From Gemmatimonadales bacterium (GTDB taxonomy: Bacteria > Gemmatimonadota > Gemmatimonadetes > Gemmatimonadales > GWC2-71-9): a DNA stretch of 64,000 bases. Positions 6,155-37,700 of the stretch are shown here, one piece after another. The notes beneath the pieces are model-generated. The model ran no database searches and was not told the DNA's origin. It saw only the letters and a program-made list of their open reading frames with translations. Position numbers and translations under genes: made by a program. Numbering within the stretch: position 1 is the first letter of the stretch; every line of letters starts with the position of its first letter. The stretch spans positions 124,001 through 188,000 of the forward strand of contig DATAOI010000044.1 in NCBI GenBank assembly GCA_036265815.1. The letters run 5' to 3'.

Positions 6155-6192
6155 GTCATCCCGAGGGAGCGGAGCGACCGAGGGATCTTCTC
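6155..6192. repeat. Palindromic intergenic repeat (REP-like)
   Basis: Between the divergent MBL-fold and dtd genes. The sequence runs from GTCATCCCGAGGG through GAGCGGAGCGACC to GAGGGATC, so its ends pair (ATCCC with GGGAT) around a GAGCGGAGCG centre. A similar GAGCGAAGCGAGGG core appears in the hairpin downstream of dnaK (45962-46020). Such elements are commonly dispersed intergenic palindromes; no copy was seen inside genes here. Confidence 0.5.
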
Positions 6193-6288
6193 ACCCGGAT
6201 CGGACCTCCGCCGCCGCGGTCGGGGAGCAGCGAGCAAAATCCCTACACCGCGATGAACGATAATCACCTCCACCCCGGCGGTCCGGCC

Positions 6289-6732
6289 ATGCGCGTAGTG
6301 CTCCAACGAGTCTCCCAAGCGTCCGTCACCATAGACGGACGGGTGGCCGGCGCCATTGGCCAGGGGTTCTGCCTGCTCGTCGGGTTCACTCACGGCGACA
6401 CCGCCGCGCAGGTAGATTGGATGGCGGAGAAAGTGGCCGGACTCCGCCTCTTCTCCGACGCCGCCGGCAAGATGAATCTCGGCCTGTCCGACGTAGGTGG
6501 CGGGGTGCTGGTGATCTCCCAGTTCACCCTCTACGGCGATGCTGCCAAGGGGCGCCGCCCGTCGTTCATCGACGCCGCCGGTCCCGACCTCGCCGAGCCG
6601 CTGTATCAGCGCTTCGTGGCCGCGCTACGGGCCTTGGGCCTCGACGTCGCGACCGGTGAGTTCGGCGCCAACATGCAGGTGGAGATCCATAACGATGGCC
6701 CCGTCACCCTCATCCTGGACCGCACTTCATGA
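6289..6732 (+). CDS. dtd: D-aminoacyl-tRNA deacylase
   Basis: 147 residues from the ATG at 6289; the longer reading from 6253 adds twelve non-conserved residues. The start [13 protein letters not shown] is the family's standard N-terminus. Active-site blocks are SQFTLYGD and the C-terminal NDGPVT, containing the Gly-cis-Pro element that screens for D-amino acids. It recycles D-aminoacyl-tRNAs by releasing free tRNA. The stop overlaps the maf start (ATGATG across the stop), so the two genes are probably co-translated. Confidence 0.95.
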
Positions 6733-22917: not shown

Positions 22918-23805
22918 TCAGGGCTCCGGCGAGTCCCGACGGGAGACCCGCTCGCTGATGTAGGCTTCAGGGGGCGCGTTCGGCTTCACCCGGACCGACT
23001 TGGCGGGGATGCCGACGTTCACGTGGTACGGGCGGACGTCCTTGGTGGCGACGGCGTTGGCGCCCACCATGCCGTTCCGCCCCACCCGCACGCCGGCCAG
23101 CACGGTCGCGTGATAGGTGATGCGCACGTCGTCCTCCAGGATGGTGCGCACGTTGGTGACGTCCTTCTGGTCCACGATGCTGTGGGTGTGGCTGTAGATG
23201 TTGGCGAAGTCCGAGACGCTCACCCGGTCGCCCAGGATAATCCCGCCGCGATCATCCAGCAGCACGTAGCGATGGATGACGCAGTCATCGCCCACCTCGA
23301 GATTGTACCCGTAGGAAAACTCGACGAACTGAAAGCACTTGAAGTTCCGTCCCACACGGGCAAAGAGGTGCGGCGCCAGGAGGCGGCGGAACCGCACTCC
23401 CAGGTGCACGTTGCCACCGCCCAGGGGCGAGCGGTCGAAGCTCTGCCACAACCAGTGGAGCGGCTTGACCCGGGCGTAGCGAACCGGATCGACGTCGGCG
23501 TAGTACTCGGGCTCCAGGGTGATGTTGCGCGGGTCGAGACAGAGCAGCGCGGCCCGGGTGCCGGCCGGGGTGGCCGGGTCCTGCAGCAGCGAGTCGTAGT
23601 CCGCCACGCCGGGGAAATAGATCTCGAACAGGATGTCCCGGGTGAGGCGGTACCAGTCGGCATCGGGGGCGGCGAGGCGGGCTTTGATGTCGGCCAGCCA
23701 GCCGTCGAAGATCTGCTCCGGGGTCTCGGGGAGAGAGACCGAGCGGAGTGGGAGATAAGCCATCGTGGCCTCGGTGGCCGTCGAAGAATTTGCGATCGGA
23801 TGCAA
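22918..23805 (-). CDS. Hexapeptide-repeat (left-handed beta-helix) acyltransferase
   Basis: 295 residues; ATG 23763 (14 residues shorter) is an equally good start and begins MAYLPLRSV. The C-terminal half (about 150-280) shows left-handed beta-helix hexapeptides: LEVGDDCVIHRYVLLDDRGG, ILGDRVSVSDFANI, ILEDDVRITYHATVLAGVRVGRNGMVGANAVATKDV and GIPAKSV. The catalytic-type His is in YSHTHSIVD. This resembles maltose/galactoside O-acetyltransferases. The N-terminal 150 residues are helical and not recognised. The acceptor substrate is unknown. It lies upstream of the sensor kinase in the same frame and is divergent from the Fur-box operon, so that operator could affect it as well. Confidence 0.8.
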   Translation of the reverse strand: MHPIANSSTATEATMAYLPLRSVSLPETPEQIFDGWLADIKARLAAPDADWYRLTRDILFEIYFPGVADYDSLLQDPATPAGTRAALLCLDPRNITLEPEYYADVDPVRYARVKPLHWLWQSFDRSPLGGGNVHLGVRFRRLLAPHLFARVGRNFKCFQFVEFSYGYNLEVGDDCVIHRYVLLDDRGGIILGDRVSVSDFANIYSHTHSIVDQKDVTNVRTILEDDVRITYHATVLAGVRVGRNGMVGANAVATKDVRPYHVNVGIPAKSVRVKPNAPPEAYISERVSRRDSPEP

Positions 23806-23835: not shown

Positions 23836-23864
23836 TTGACACCAGTGCCAAACGGGAATAAGGT
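23836..23864 (+). promoter_or_regulatory. Candidate sigma-70-type promoter for the porin operon
   Basis: TTGACA at 23836-23841 is an exact -35 hexamer. Seventeen bases later TAAGGT (23859-23864) is a weak -10. A Fur box begins 14 bases downstream, so bound repressor would overlap the start of transcription. Confidence 0.45.
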
Positions 23865-23878
23865 AGTAGCCATTCTGC

Positions 23879-23893
23879 TGATAATCATTCTCA
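23879..23893 (+). promoter_or_regulatory. Fur box
   Basis: TGATAATCATTCTCA matches the 7-1-7 Fur operator TGATAAT-N-ATTATCA at 14 of 15 positions. It sits 20 bases before the porin ATG in the intergenic region between the acyltransferase and the porin. Such a match is rare by chance in GC-rich DNA. It implies iron-responsive control of the downstream porin-FMN protein-membrane protein-ApbE operon. Confidence 0.75.
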
Positions 23894-23913
23894 ACTAGTC
23901 TTTGAGGCCGTTG

Positions 23914-25038
23914 ATGCGCACCCTCCTCCCCTGGGTCCTCGCGCTCCTACTGACCGTCCCCCCCCTCGCCGCCCAGGAGGAGGCGAAAGAATCGACCACC
24001 ATCGGAGGCTACGGCGAGGTCCACTTCACCAACGCCACCGGCCCCGATACCCCCGGCGAGGTCAACGTCAAGCGCTTCGTGGTCTACCTGGCGCACACCT
24101 TCAACGAGCGCATCGCCTTCCACTCCGAGCTCGAGGTCGAGGACACCAAGGTGGAGGGGGGCGAAGAGGGCGGCGAGGTGGCCATGGAGCAGCTCTATCT
24201 CGACTACACCTTCTCGCCTGTCGTCACCCTCCGCGCCGGCCTGGTGCTCCCGCCCATCGGCATCATCAACGAGACGCACGAGCCACCCACCTTCAACGGC
24301 GTCGACCGCCCGCTGCTGGAGCAGGAGGTGATCCCCACGACCTGGCGCGACATCGGGGTCGGGGCCGTGGGTACCCTGCCAGGCTCGTCCGGGCTCAGCT
24401 ACCGCATCTACCTGGTCAACGGCCTCCTGGCCGAGGGGTTCTCGGCGGAGACCGGGATCCGTGGAGGGAGGCAGGAGGGGAAGGAGGCGAGCTTCGCCAA
24501 CCCATCGGTGACCGGCCGGCTCGAGTGGACCCGTCCGGGACTCCGGATCGGAGGCTCGTTCTGGTACGGCGGCACCGCCAACCAGAATCCTGCCATCGGC
24601 GACGGCGCCTTCGACGCGCCGGTGTTCCTGAGCTCCGCCGACGTCCGGTACGACGTGGGGGCGTTCGCCTTCCGCGGAGTGTTCGCCAACATCCACATCT
24701 CCAAGGCCGATCTGATCAGCGTGGCAAACGGCGCGAGCGTGGCCAGCCGGATCACCGGTGGCTACGTCGAGGGGGCCTACAACTTGCTTGCCCAGCTCGC
24801 GCCCGCATCGGCCCAGCGACTCAATGCCTTCATCCGCTACGAGAACTACGATACCCAGGCGTCGGTCCCCGACAACGCCGCCAAGGACGATGCGCTCGCG
24901 CGCCGGGTGACCACCTTCGGGCTTTCCTACAAGCCGCTCTACAACGTGATCTTCAAGGGCGACTACCAGCTCCGCCGCAACAAGGCCAGTGTGGGCGAGA
25001 ACGAGGTGCTGGCCCTCGGCGTGGGCTATGAGTTCTGA
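23914..25038 (+). CDS. Outer-membrane porin-like protein, Fur-box operon
   Basis: 374 residues from ATG 23914; an in-frame TTG lies 12 bases earlier. The signal peptide (LLPWVLALLLTVPPLAAQ) is followed by a beta-barrel-type sequence: IGGYGEVHFTN, RFVVYLAHTFNERIAFHSEL, QLYLDYTF, RAGLVLPPIGIINETHEPPT, YRIYLVNGL, and C-terminal VLALGVGYEF ending in the Phe typical of outer-membrane proteins. It resembles phosphate-selective or general porin barrels. The stretch EVEDTKVEGGEEGGEV is acidic and might bind cations. It is first in a four-gene operon with a secreted FMN-binding protein and ApbE; a role in metal entry is inference. Confidence 0.8.
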   Translation: MRTLLPWVLALLLTVPPLAAQEEAKESTTIGGYGEVHFTNATGPDTPGEVNVKRFVVYLAHTFNERIAFHSELEVEDTKVEGGEEGGEVAMEQLYLDYTFSPVVTLRAGLVLPPIGIINETHEPPTFNGVDRPLLEQEVIPTTWRDIGVGAVGTLPGSSGLSYRIYLVNGLLAEGFSAETGIRGGRQEGKEASFANPSVTGRLEWTRPGLRIGGSFWYGGTANQNPAIGDGAFDAPVFLSSADVRYDVGAFAFRGVFANIHISKADLISVANGASVASRITGGYVEGAYNLLAQLAPASAQRLNAFIRYENYDTQASVPDNAAKDDALARRVTTFGLSYKPLYNVIFKGDYQLRRNKASVGENEVLALGVGYEF

Positions 25039-25118
25039 GGTGGACCGTCACGGCGTTGTGGGGCCTCGATGTCACCGCTATTCTCAACGGCCACATGGAT
25101 CTTCCGGGGTGTGCTGAG

Positions 25119-25607
25119 ATGCGGGTCCTGCCGGTCCTCGTGCTTTCGCTGCTGGTGGCCCGGGCCTCTGCGGCTCAGTCGGCTCCCCCCGGGAAGCTGG
25201 CCAAGTCGATCGAGCGGGTCTACGGCAAAGGCGCCATGATCGACAGCATCCGGGTCGACACCACCACGGTGTTGCGCATCTCGGGGGCTGGCGCGCTGCT
25301 CGGCTTTGCTGAGGTGCGGAACGTGAAGGGCAAGGACCAGCCCATCACCTATCTGGTCGCCATCGATCCGGAGGATCGCCTCAAGGACATCGACATCCTG
25401 GTCTATCGGGAGCCGCACGGCGGAGAGGTGGCCTATGACTCGTGGCGGAAGCAGTTTCGCGGCAAGACCACCGGCGCACCGCTGCAGGTCGGGAAGGACA
25501 TCCGCAACATCTCCGGAGCCACCATCAGCTCGAATGCCGTGACCCGGAGCGTCCGGCAAGCCTTGGCGGAGCTGACCGGCTGGCATCAGTCCGGAAGGCT
25601 CAAGTGA
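25119..25607 (+). CDS. Secreted FMN-binding domain protein (covalently flavinylated)
   Basis: 162 residues from ATG 25119. A short signal peptide (VLPVLVLSLLVARASAAQ) precedes one FMN-binding domain. The flavinylation motif is SGATISS at 132-138, with Thr135 as the expected attachment site. In this family (NqrC, RnfG and single-domain relatives) ApbE transfers FMN from FAD to that Thr. ApbE is encoded two genes downstream in the same operon, a strong context match. The protein would be a periplasmic single-domain electron carrier. The stop overlaps the next gene (GTGA). Confidence 0.88.
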   Translation: MRVLPVLVLSLLVARASAAQSAPPGKLAKSIERVYGKGAMIDSIRVDTTTVLRISGAGALLGFAEVRNVKGKDQPITYLVAIDPEDRLKDIDILVYREPHGGEVAYDSWRKQFRGKTTGAPLQVGKDIRNISGATISSNAVTRSVRQALAELTGWHQSGRLK

Positions 25608-26098
25608 GCTGGCGCCGAATGCCGGCGCCGATCCGAGCGCTCGGCCGATGGATCACCATCATTCAACTGGTGGGCTACACGACCTCGTTGCTCTTCGTTC
25701 ACCATACCACCGGTATGACCCCGGCCGGCGTCGCCGCCCATTACCGAGGAAACGGCGCCGACTCCGCGGGCAGCGAAGCGGAGATGGAGTTTCCCAAGTC
25801 GTTCACGGAGATGCTCACGATCACCCACACCCATCTCTTGAGCATGGCGGTGATCTTCGTCCTGAGCGGGCTGGCCCTCGCGCTCTGCGAGTGGCCATCC
25901 GAGGCGTGGCGGCGGACGCTGATCGTGGAGCCGTTCGTGGCGCTTCTGGTATCGTTCTCCGCGATGTGGCTCATGCGGTACGTCGATGGCCGGTTCAGTT
26001 GGCTGCTCGCGGCGTCCAGCGCGCTCATGGCGATCACGTTTTACGTCCAGTCGCTTCTGGTGCTGCGGGAGCTGGCGCGGCCGGCGGAGCCCGCATGA
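25604..26098 (+). CDS. Small four-helix membrane protein of flavin operon
   Basis: 164 residues from GTG 25604 (overlapping the FMN-protein stop); ATG 25619 is an alternative. Four hydrophobic segments: ITIIQLVGYTTSLLF (about 16-32), HLLSMAVIFVLSGLALAL (about 75-95), FVALLVSFSAMWLM (about 110-125) and LLAASSALMAITFYVQSLLVL (about 133-155). His residues cluster at helix ends (FVHHTTG, AHYRGN, THTHLLSM), where they could ligate haem b or a metal. The family was not recognised. Its position between the flavoprotein and ApbE suggests a membrane electron donor or quinol oxidase partner. The stop overlaps apbE (ATGA). Confidence 0.75.
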   Translation: MSWRRMPAPIRALGRWITIIQLVGYTTSLLFVHHTTGMTPAGVAAHYRGNGADSAGSEAEMEFPKSFTEMLTITHTHLLSMAVIFVLSGLALALCEWPSEAWRRTLIVEPFVALLVSFSAMWLMRYVDGRFSWLLAASSALMAITFYVQSLLVLRELARPAEPA

Positions 26099-27048
26099 GG
26101 CGGCGTCGGTTTCTCGGGATGCTGGGCGCCGGCCTCATCGGCGTGCTCCCGGGCGCACTGCCGGCTGCCGTGCGCCGCGGGGCTGCCCGCCGCACGGGCG
26201 AGCGTCTGGTCGAGCGCTGGTCCTGGGCGATGGGCCAGCCGGTGCACTTGCAGCTCTTCGCCGCGGATGAGGCCGCCGGTTACGAAGCTGCGCAGGCCGC
26301 GCTGGCCGAGCTCTGGCGGGTTGAGCACGCGCTCTCGGGGTTCGACGACTCCAGCGATCTCTGCGAGTTGAACCGGCGTGCCGGGCGGCCGGCGATCAGG
26401 GTCGGGTCGGACCTGGCGGAGGTGCTCGTCGCGGCACTCGGTTTCGAGCGGGCCACCGCGGGGGCATTCAATCCATCGGTCGAGCCGCTGATGCGTGCCT
26501 GGGGCTTCCATGCGTCACGAACCCGGGAACCCACCGCGCCGGAGATCGCGGCGGCCCGGCGCGTGGTTCAGGCGACTCGGGTAGTGGTGGATGGGGATCG
26601 CGTGGAGCTGCCGAGCCGGGAGAGCAGGCTCGACCTGGGCGGGATCGGGGTGGGCTATGGGCTCGACCGGGCGGTCGCGGTGCTCAGGCGGGCAGGGGTG
26701 CGTCGGGCCATGCTGGACATCAGCGGCGACTGCTACGCGCTCGGCGCGCCGCCCGGGGAACCGGGCTGGCTGGTGGAGGTCGCCGATCCCCGCCCGGGTC
26801 GCGGCATGCTCGCGGCGACCCGCCTCAGCGATGCGGCGCTCGCCACGTCATCCAACTCCGTCTCGGTGGTCCGCTACGGGCGCGCGGTGTGGGGCCACGT
26901 CATGGATCCGTCGACCGGCTGGCCGGCAGACGCGTTGGCTCAGGTGTCGGTGGTGGCCCGGAGCGGGCTCGAGGCCGATGCCCTCTCGACCGCCATGCTG
27001 GTGTCAGGCGCGCCGGCACCGGGCGTGCTCCGGAGCTTCACCCTCTGA
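26095..27048 (+). CDS. apbE: FAD:protein FMN transferase
   Basis: 317 residues from ATG 26095. The N-terminus MRRRRFLGMLGAGLIG has a twin-arginine export signature, in line with ApbE's extracytoplasmic location. Family motifs: ALSGFDDSSDLCELNR, GAFNPSVEPLMRAWGF, LDLGGIGVGYGLD, SGDCYALG, HVMDPSTGWPA, and the magnesium site EADALSTAMLVSG near the C-terminus. It flavinylates Thr in SGAT-type motifs, and the substrate is very likely the FMN-binding protein two genes upstream. It ends the operon, converging with the hypothetical gene at 27053. Confidence 0.93.
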   Translation: MRRRRFLGMLGAGLIGVLPGALPAAVRRGAARRTGERLVERWSWAMGQPVHLQLFAADEAAGYEAAQAALAELWRVEHALSGFDDSSDLCELNRRAGRPAIRVGSDLAEVLVAALGFERATAGAFNPSVEPLMRAWGFHASRTREPTAPEIAAARRVVQATRVVVDGDRVELPSRESRLDLGGIGVGYGLDRAVAVLRRAGVRRAMLDISGDCYALGAPPGEPGWLVEVADPRPGRGMLAATRLSDAALATSSNSVSVVRYGRAVWGHVMDPSTGWPADALAQVSVVARSGLEADALSTAMLVSGAPAPGVLRSFTL

Positions 27049-34733: not shown

Positions 34734-37700
34734 GGAGGCCCGACGGTGGTGGCGGCATCGATGCGCTGGGCCCGGGGAGCCCGGTGTGCGGCCGGTATCG
34801 CATCGAGCGCGAGCTGGGCCGCGGCGGGATGGCGACGGTCTACCTGGCGCGTGACCTGCCCCACGACCGGCTGGTGGCGCTCAAGACGCTGCATCCGGAG
34901 CTCTCCGGGGCCCTGGGCGCCGACCGGTTTCTCCGCGAGATCTCCATCGCGTCCCGGCTCCAGCATCCGAACATCCTGCCGCTCTTCGACTCGGGCACCA
35001 CCGTGCTGGGTGGGGGTGAGGCGCGGTCGTTCTACGTGATGCCGTACGTTCCCGGGGAGTCGCTGCGTGCCCGGCTGCAGCGGGAGACTCAGCTCGGGCT
35101 GGAGGAGGCGATCGGGATCTGCCGCCAGGTCGCGGCCGCGCTGGACTATGCACACGCCCAGGGGATCGTGCACCGGGACATCAAGCCGGAGAACATCCTG
35201 CTGGACGCCGAGCGGGTGGTGGTCGCCGACTTCGGGGTCGCGACGGCGCTGGATGCCGCGGGTGGGGACAAGCTGACCCAGACGGGACTCTCGCTGGGCA
35301 CACCGGCCTACATGAGTCCCGAGCAGGCCACGGCCAGGCGGGTGGACGCACGGTCGGACGTGTACAGCCTCGCCTGCGTGATGTACGAGATGCTGGTGGG
35401 CGACCCGCCGTTCCTGGGGTCGAGCCCGCGCGCGGTCATGGCCCGTCACGCGCTCGATCCGGTCCCCTCGGTGCGCACGGCTCGGCCCGAGATTCCCGAT
35501 TACCTCGAGGCGGCGCTCCGGCGGGGGCTCGCCAAGGTCCCGGGCGACCGGTTCGCCTCGGCCGGTGAGCTCGCTGCCGCGGTTGCGGGAGCCGGGCCGC
35601 TGGTCAGAGGCTCTGCACCTGCGCGGACCCGCAGGTGGAGGATCGTTGGGGCACTCGCGCTCGGCGGCCTCGGGCTGCTCGCGCTCTGGCACTTGCGGCC
35701 GATCCCCACCACGCCGACCGAGTCCCGCCGGGTGGCAGTCCTTCCGTTCGACGTCTCGGCCGCCGCGCCGGATCTCGCCTGGCTCGGGGAGGGAATGGTC
35801 GATCTGTTCTCGACTCAGTTGAGCGGAGACACGGCGCTGCAGGTGGCCGATCCCCGGACGGTGCTGGGAGCCTGGTATCGGGCCCGGGCGCGGGGCGATA
35901 CGACCGGCGGGGCGGATGCTCGTTTGGCGCGCCGGATCGGCGCAGGTAGGGTCCTCGAAGGTGCCGTCGCCGGGAGCCCGGCTCGCCTCGTCCTCTCGGC
36001 ATCCGTCCGGCCGGTTGGTGAGCATCAGCCCGGGCCTCGCGTGACCGTCACCGGACCCGCGGACAGCCTGCCGGTCCTGGTGGACCGTCTCACGGCCCAG
36101 TTGGTCGGCATCGATGCGGGTGTCGACCGGCAACGCCTCGGGTTGTTGATGAGCAACTCGCTGGCGGCAGTGCGCGCGTTCGCGAGGGGGCGCGCCGCGT
36201 ACCGCCGCGGCCACCTGGAGGAGGCAATCCGGTACCTCCACGAGGCCACGGTGCTCGACTCGACGTTCGCGCTCGCGGCGCTGGAGCTCGAGAGGCTTTC
36301 GGGCTGGCTCGGGGTTCTTGGGGGGGACGAGGACCTGGAGCGGGCCCGCCGGCTCGTGTGGATGGGACGGGACCGGTTGAGCCCCACGGACCGCGCGCTG
36401 CTCAAATCGTCGCAACGCCCATGGGCGGGTGCGCCGGCAATGTTCGCCCACCGGCGGGCCTCAGTGACCGCCTACCCGAACGAGCCGCACGTCTGGTATG
36501 TCCTCGGCGACACCTACTTCCACTGGGGTATCCTGGCCGGGCAGGACTCGGCGCTCGAGCAGGCCCGCAGCGCATTTCAGCGTGGCTGGTCCATCGATTC
36601 GGCAACCACCCTCGACTCCAGCGCGACGGTGCGGTCGCCACTGTTCGCGGAGCCGCTCACCCACATGGTGGACCTGGCTCAGATCGCCGGAGACACGGCC
36701 GAGGTGCTTCGGCTTACCGCGCTCGGGCTCGAGGCGGACACCGCCGGCAGGCAGGCGCACTACCTCCAGTGGCACCGGGCCCTCGCGCGCGGAGACAGTG
36801 CCCGGCGAGCCTTCTGGGCCAATCAGACCCGCCCCCGCGATTTGCCCGCCCTGATATTCATGTTCACGCAGTGGACTGGCATCGCGGTCGAGGATGTGGC
36901 GAGAGCCATCGCGGAAGACATGGTCGGCGCGACCGGTGACTATGCCTCGTTGCTCCGACAAATCCGCGCGGGTCTCGCACTCAACGGCGGCCGCCCAGCG
37001 GAGGCGAACAGGGACTTGGCCGCGAACTCGTCGCGGTCCGCATTGCGGGAGCGGGTCCTTACCGCGCTCTACTGGCAGGGAGATACCGTCGGAATCCCCG
37101 AGATCGTGCGCCGGATGGTGACGCTCCCGAAGGTTCCGGCCACCGACCGGGGCGAGCGCCGGGAGCAGTACCGTGACCTGTGTGTCGGCTTCCAATGGCG
37201 GCTGAGTCAGGGGGAGACCGAGGGCGCTGCGGAGGCCGTGGCGCTGCTCCGGACCGCTCACATTCCTGGGCTTTCCGACGGCGACTCCGCCATGTTCGCC
37301 CGCTTCACCGGTCTATGCTCCGCCCTGTTGCGGGTGCTGCAGGTAGGCACAGGAGCGTTCTCGCGGTCCCAGCCTCTCGCCGACCTGGATTCGCTGGCAC
37401 GCACGGACGTGTACGAGGTCTGCTGCGCGGCGGGGTGGGACGGGAACCCGGGCGCGAACCTGGTGCTGGCACGCGCCGCCGAATATCAGGGCGACCTGCC
37501 GCTGGCGCTGCGCGCTGTCAGGCGACGGGCATCGGGATTCATGCTGGCGCCGACCTACATGTCGACCTTCCTCCGCGAGGAGGGGAGACTGTCCACGCTG
37601 AGCGGCGATACGGCGGGCGCGATCCGCGCGTACCGGCACTATCTCGCACTCCGGCGAGATCCGGAGCCGGCGCTGCAGCCGGAGGTCGAGCGGGTCCGGG

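Follow-up and report, generated by a model that had tools for sequence, protein, structure and literature searches.

We analyzed a four-gene operon located, together with its promoter, at positions 23836-27048 of a 64,000-nt stretch of a Gemmatimonadota metagenome-assembled genome (the window), and on balance we favor its interpretation as an iron-starvation-induced system of flavin-based extracytoplasmic electron transfer that serves iron acquisition. All four genes lie on the plus strand: (i) an outer-membrane porin with a signal peptide, a C-terminal Phe and, in its structure model, a 16-stranded barrel (23914..25038), (ii) a secreted FMN_bind protein matching the Pfam profile PF04205 (25119..25607), (iii) a four-helix membrane protein, hereafter 4TM, that starts with GTG and belongs to no Pfam family (25604..26098), and (iv) ApbE, the flavin adenine dinucleotide (FAD):protein flavin mononucleotide (FMN) transferase, also identified by a Pfam profile (26095..27048). 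Four-base overlaps join FMN_bind to 4TM (GTGA, 25604-25607) and 4TM to ApbE (ATGA, 26095-26098). The four genes, both overlaps, the SGAT flavinylation motif and the operator reported in the initial annotation of this DNA were all found in place. An alternative start of the FMN_bind gene, TTG at 25056, gives a longer frame; longer 4TM and ApbE proteins, obtained by extending their frames upstream, were rejected, since in this DNA of high GC content the extensions run across the preceding gene in a different frame.

The predicted promoter (23836..23864, plus strand) combines a perfect -35 box, TTGACA at 23836, with a 17-bp spacer and a poorly matching -10 box, TAAGGT, and was not detected by a generic promoter scan of the window. 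The pattern TTGACN-N17-TANNNT is present in 14 of the 15 loci comprising the window and 14 further Gemmatimonadota loci (13 of the latter 14), and thus the promoter, although its -10 box is weak, is probably real. A pattern scan placed the candidate Fur operator TGATAATCATTCTCA 15 bp 3' of the -10 box (23879..23893, no strand assigned); it matches 14 of the 15 positions of the Fur box and is the sole good Fur site in the window, a match at 36852 with 2-3 mismatches having been discarded as chance level. The complete 4.59-Mb genome contains two sites with at most one mismatch to TGANAATNATTNTCA, and the reversed-pattern control gave none. Upstream of the porin gene, a Fur-like site with at most three mismatches was found in 11 of the 14 other Gemmatimonadota loci (L038-L051). 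At this threshold none was found in L042, L044 and L049, of which L042 retains a decayed version. Beyond these promoters, one Fur-like site occurs in the ~239 kb scanned, window included. The genome also encodes Fur itself (G000:C22, 105.9 bits), so that both a conserved box at the promoter and a fur gene are present. Phylogenetic footprinting, together with the regulon content described below, supports the predicted Fur control of the operon.

The same genome has its second Fur box where the gene for a cytochrome c-FTR1 iron permease begins (L037, matching both PF13442 and PF03239). In this protein (L037:4093-6267) a c-type cytochrome domain at the N-terminus is joined to the FTR1 permease; the longest frame contains an internal start codon that is overlapped by the Fur box (6186-6200), so the true start is probably downstream of the start of the open reading frame. 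Paired Fur sites at the four-gene cluster and at FTR1 recur in three relatives (G002, G008 and G030). The pattern TGANAAYNATTNTCA was found in the genomes of 48 of 101 relatives, the reversed control firing in two. For the family, which comprises 61 genomes, a manual tally of the Fur sites assigned 24 to FTR1, 12 to other places, and nine to the cluster, G030 accounting for two of these nine. The 24 FTR1-linked sites are positioned ~1 to 1.5 kb ahead of the FTR1 domain and hence near the gene start. The other 12 include sites at FeoB (L106), TonB receptors (L210, L211, L214), heme oxygenase (L229), and a porin beside fur (L217); in the latter locus (L217:127-1961, genome G053) the fur gene is directly followed by the Fur box and the porin-like gene. 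Since the targets of the motif include FTR1, FeoB, TonB receptors, heme oxygenase, and fur, we take it to signal iron control in these relatives.

The assignments of the two flavinylation proteins, a secreted FMN_bind protein with an SGAT motif and its ApbE, stand on profile scores above the cut-offs (44.4 bits vs 22 for PF04205 and 204.5 bits vs 25.6 for PF02424) and on conservation of the motif. The candidate flavinylated Thr belongs to ISGATIS, its codon being at 25521-25523 on the plus strand, and the motif is retained in every FMN_bind protein of this type, if AGAT is allowed for SGAT. The N-terminus of ApbE is twin-arginine-like (RRRRFLGM); signal peptides were judged from sequence only. 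An exported ApbE beside a secreted, motif-bearing substrate is the arrangement by which flavinylated extracytosolic systems are recognized, and ApbE together with SGAT argues strongly for covalent attachment of FMN to the Thr residue. In all eight genomes tested, our own included, the ApbE of the cluster is the sole ApbE; thus, the flavinylation machinery in these genomes appears to be dedicated to the cluster substrate.

For the porin, the name given in the initial annotation holds by structure and not by sequence profile: PF07396 scores 12.9 bits, under its cut-off of 20.9, and the AlphaFold2 model, with a predicted local distance difference test (pLDDT) value of 82.7, has 16 strands and matches the OmpF/OmpC fold at E 1e-13. 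The protein shows the features of general porins, namely a 16-stranded beta barrel, a signal peptide and a terminal aromatic residue. Residues 112-145 form the presumed constriction loop, which is strongly conserved and contains NETHEPPTFNG; Asn119, Glu120, His122, Glu123, Pro124, Phe127, Asn128, and Gly129 are invariant in 16 sequences. This loop is a possible filter for a metal or another substrate, and the porin is a plausible, putative entry route for the electron acceptor.

Scanning a collection of genome contigs for the cluster yielded 19 loci. The order porin-FMN_bind-4TM-ApbE, which the initial annotation had proposed to look for in other genomes, is kept in all 14 further Gemmatimonadota loci, and separation of the genes in close relatives was not seen. 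Wherever both flanks are covered, the cluster occupies a single genomic position, with a histidine kinase, in some loci accompanied by an acyltransferase, on one side and engB/clpX on the other. In one locus (L051:7001-7481) the 4TM gene is broken into two frames by a frameshift or an assembly error, the cluster being otherwise intact. The acyltransferase, a hexapeptide-type protein encoded divergently in the window (22918..23763, minus strand), was not counted within the system; it is a conserved neighbor in part of the clade and could share the Fur operator with the operon. The same gene at L210:1594-2439 adjoins a TonB receptor gene, both beside the Fur box, as if the outer-membrane part had been swapped for a TonB receptor at this position.

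The cluster extends to Bacteroidota. Two loci (L052, L053) carry the complete set of four genes, the porin gene being in divergent orientation, and a third (L054) contains porin-FMN_bind-4TM, with ApbE at another place in the genome. In the family of locus L055, labelled Flavobacteriaceae, 4TM is present in 96 of 249 genomes, and the arrangement porin-FMN_bind-4TM was found in 18 of 20 sampled loci. Most of the Flavobacteriaceae cluster porins (L149-L167) are preceded by a palindrome near TTATTTAGA-N5-TCTAAATAA; in L052 and L053, a palindrome CTTATTTGAAC-TTT-GTCCAAATAAG lies at ~6290-6330, in the gap from which the porin and FMN_bind genes diverge. A search of eight genomes returned 4-16 palindrome sites in each, and the reversed control 0-5 per strand. 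Elsewhere, the palindrome occurs at TonB receptors (L174, L183), at a locus of TonB receptor, DUF6607, and FMN_bind genes (L182), at AraC regulators beside ferrochelatase or hemA (L168, L181, L171), and at DUF4856 (L170); some sites (e.g., L169, L179) fall at genes without an obvious iron link. In L055 and L056, FMN_bind-4TM occurs together with DUF6607, a TonB receptor and a HmuY protein. Another Flavobacteriaceae locus (L148:6982-13819) holds an array of DUF4856, imelysin, HTTM/gamma-carboxylase, TonB receptor, and 4TM genes with an iron-type palindrome upstream; a literature search found no description of the DUF4856/imelysin/HTTM array. The palindrome is likely an iron operator of Bacteroidota. 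Because an operator different from the Fur box here groups the 4TM gene with iron and heme acquisition, the iron linkage of the cluster gains independent support, in line with the predicted role in iron acquisition.

The initial annotation described 4TM as a His-rich four-helix membrane protein; the four helices were confirmed, and the His content was overstated, the window protein having five His residues, of which His75 and His77 alone are invariant (codons 25826-25828 and 25832-25834, plus strand, from the alignment). The structure model (pLDDT 87, predicted template modeling score 0.79) contains long helices at 8-36, 67-93, 100-126, and 129-158. From the positive-inside rule we read both termini as cytoplasmic and the long loop 37-66 as periplasmic, which would put His75 and His77 in helix 2, within its outer third. 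In the wider 4TM family, the invariant residues are Tyr47, His75, His77, and two Phe; in the closer family, Met61, Lys65, Met70, Met81, Glu109, and Pro110, among others, are invariant as well. The window protein has no Pfam match, and none is consistent across the family: 17 members searched at E<=1 gave no match to NapH, MsrQ, PepSY, DsbD, Nqr/Rnf, or DUF4405, and matches of single members to MHYT, LysE, and DUF2298 were at chance level. NCBIfam likewise yielded no match to the known flavinylation-associated membrane classes or to any other family, and the PDB no relative by sequence; the fold search gave generic four-helix bundles at a best E of 1.0. A distant member (L036) matches cytochrome b561 (PF01292) at E 3.8e-4, scoring 20.7 bits vs a cut-off of 30.1. 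As candidates for bis-His heme ligands, only His75 and His77 are retained in the family of the window protein. The His-x-His pair suits a periplasm-facing site for a heme or other cofactor, possibly completed through dimerization, as proposed for FezC (PMC11334425).

A paralogous cluster, found in our own genome (G000:C28) and in relatives (L033:5666-7952, L034:7147-9141, L035:6250-8418), encodes a BBP2-type porin, a 4TM paralog, and an FMN_bind-like protein lacking SGAT, with no ApbE; it looks like a sister system without flavinylation. Retention of 4TM at loci that lack a local flavinylated protein, the invariant His75, His77, Met61, Met70, Met81, and Glu109, and a four-helix fold without a known cytochrome match would all agree with 4TM being a His/Met/Glu-lined metal-ion permease or chaperone, or an assembly factor, the flavin receiving its electrons from another donor. 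We regard this as unlikely, at perhaps one chance in a few, given that no other protein of the operon resides in the inner membrane, that 4TM adjoins FMN_bind in nearly all loci, and that membrane electron-transfer parts likewise adjoin their substrates in the described flavinylation systems (PMC8238504, PMC11334425).

Gene order, protein families, the Fur motif, regulon membership, conservation, the flavinylation motif and the fold class are directly established, and the electron-transfer pathway that we propose runs as follows. When iron is scarce, Fur would leave the operator and the four genes would be co-transcribed. ApbE, exported probably via the twin-arginine translocation pathway, would attach FMN to the SGAT Thr of the secreted FMN_bind protein, and 4TM, with the quinol pool or else the cytoplasm as its source, would move electrons onto this flavin, probably via a cofactor that the invariant His-x-His binds close to the periplasm. 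Once reduced, the flavoprotein would in turn reduce ferric iron or a ferric chelate admitted by the porin. Import of the resulting Fe(II) would fall to the FTR1-type permease, which is under the same regulation, or to FeoB in some relatives. Electron flow through 4TM and ferric iron as the acceptor are each proposed with moderate confidence; delivery of iron to FTR1, held with the same confidence, is suggested by the regulatory link alone.

The main rival to iron acquisition is iron sparing, whereby the Fur-induced cluster would replace a heme- or Fe-S-dependent periplasmic carrier and iron would not be its substrate. Flavodoxin similarly stands in for ferredoxin when iron is short. Fur control fits this explanation equally, the four-gene operon itself contains no iron transporter, and the idea has been brought up for flavinylated systems (PMC8238504). 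However, the porin and the placement of the Flavobacteria genes by HmuY/TonB receptor or imelysin/TonB receptor genes suggest acquisition, and the operon encodes no terminal oxidoreductase; we give iron sparing about a one-in-five chance. A different oxidized metal or an organic compound entering via the porin, with Fur control arising from overlapping metal regulons, is improbable: Fur-family regulators such as Mur and PerR recognize similar boxes, but the other targets of the motif are FTR1, FeoB, TonB receptors, heme oxygenase, and fur, and the unrelated operator of Flavobacteria again joins the cluster with iron and heme genes.

Several observations weigh against the proposed iron-acquisition system itself. 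Apart from the sub-cut-off b561 match of L036, 4TM has no detectable kinship to known electron-transfer families. The paralogous cluster and the imelysin locus L148 retain it without a flavinylated neighbor, so its role may be wider. The four-gene cluster is patchy, being present in four of ten genomes of the genus, and FTR1 occurs in 76 of 101 relatives irrespective of the cluster, which rules it out as an obligatory partner.

If true, our interpretation implies more flavin-based extracytosolic electron pathways than those mapped from known membrane families. For soil Gemmatimonadota and the 96 Flavobacteriaceae genomes alike, it ties a large uncharacterized gene set to iron acquisition, with a Pfam-less membrane family put forward as the missing electron-transfer part. 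Flavobacteria are culturable and engineerable, so the claim is directly testable.

Among related systems, RnfG and NqrC share with our substrate an FMN_bind domain with a Thr-FMN motif; however, the protein scores well under both cut-offs (31.3 vs 102 bits for RnfG and 20.1 vs 144 bits for NqrC), excluding these assignments, and further rnf or nqr genes are absent from the operon. In the reductive iron assimilation of yeast (Fre/Fet3/Ftr1), a surface ferric reductase and an FTR1-family permease are both induced by lack of iron. The logic of a reductase plus an FTR1 permease is the same here, whereas the reductase is not homologous and no multicopper oxidase was identified. We tentatively suggest, with less confidence than for the operon itself, that 4TM is a new class of membrane electron-transfer protein feeding flavinylated proteins and that, with the porin and the Fur-co-regulated cytochrome c-FTR1, it constitutes reductive iron assimilation like that of yeast Fre/Ftr1 across Gemmatimonadota and, for the reductase part, in ~40% of Flavobacteriaceae genomes.

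The clusters of PepSY, DUF2271, DUF4198, and ApbE that are Fur-repressed in Caulobacter (CC_3059-3063) and Shewanella (PMC8238504, PMC3751524) are likewise Fur-controlled, combine ApbE with a secreted substrate and a membrane protein, and have a proposed role in iron reduction and assimilation. In contrast, our operon has no PepSY, DUF2271, or DUF4198 (the first two were not found by a Pfam search), its substrate is FMN_bind, and the membrane partner is a Pfam-less four-helix protein. DUF4405 and FezC are membrane cytochromes that carry conserved His residues and are associated with flavinylation or with an iron organelle, FezC being modeled to form heme sites through dimerizing (PMC11334425). 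4TM resembles them as a membrane protein with conserved His and a flavinylation or iron association, yet DUF4405 has six helices with four central His, whereas 4TM has four helices with His-x-His on one helix and no PF14358 match. The P19/FTR1 clusters, which carry FMN_bind proteins (PMC8238504), also connect a flavinylated protein with the iron permease FTR1; there, the two belong to one gene cluster with P19, whereas here the cytochrome c-fused FTR1 is at a separate locus, linked by Fur only. By sequence and fold, 4TM matches none of the flavinylation membrane classes named in the text of those papers. A literature search found no description of this gene set or of cytochrome c-FTR1, in agreement with the initial annotation, which had considered the four-gene combination under Fur undescribed. 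The tie between flavinylation and Fur-controlled iron uptake is already known (PMC8238504, PMC3751524), so the novelty lies in the membrane partner and in this set of genes.

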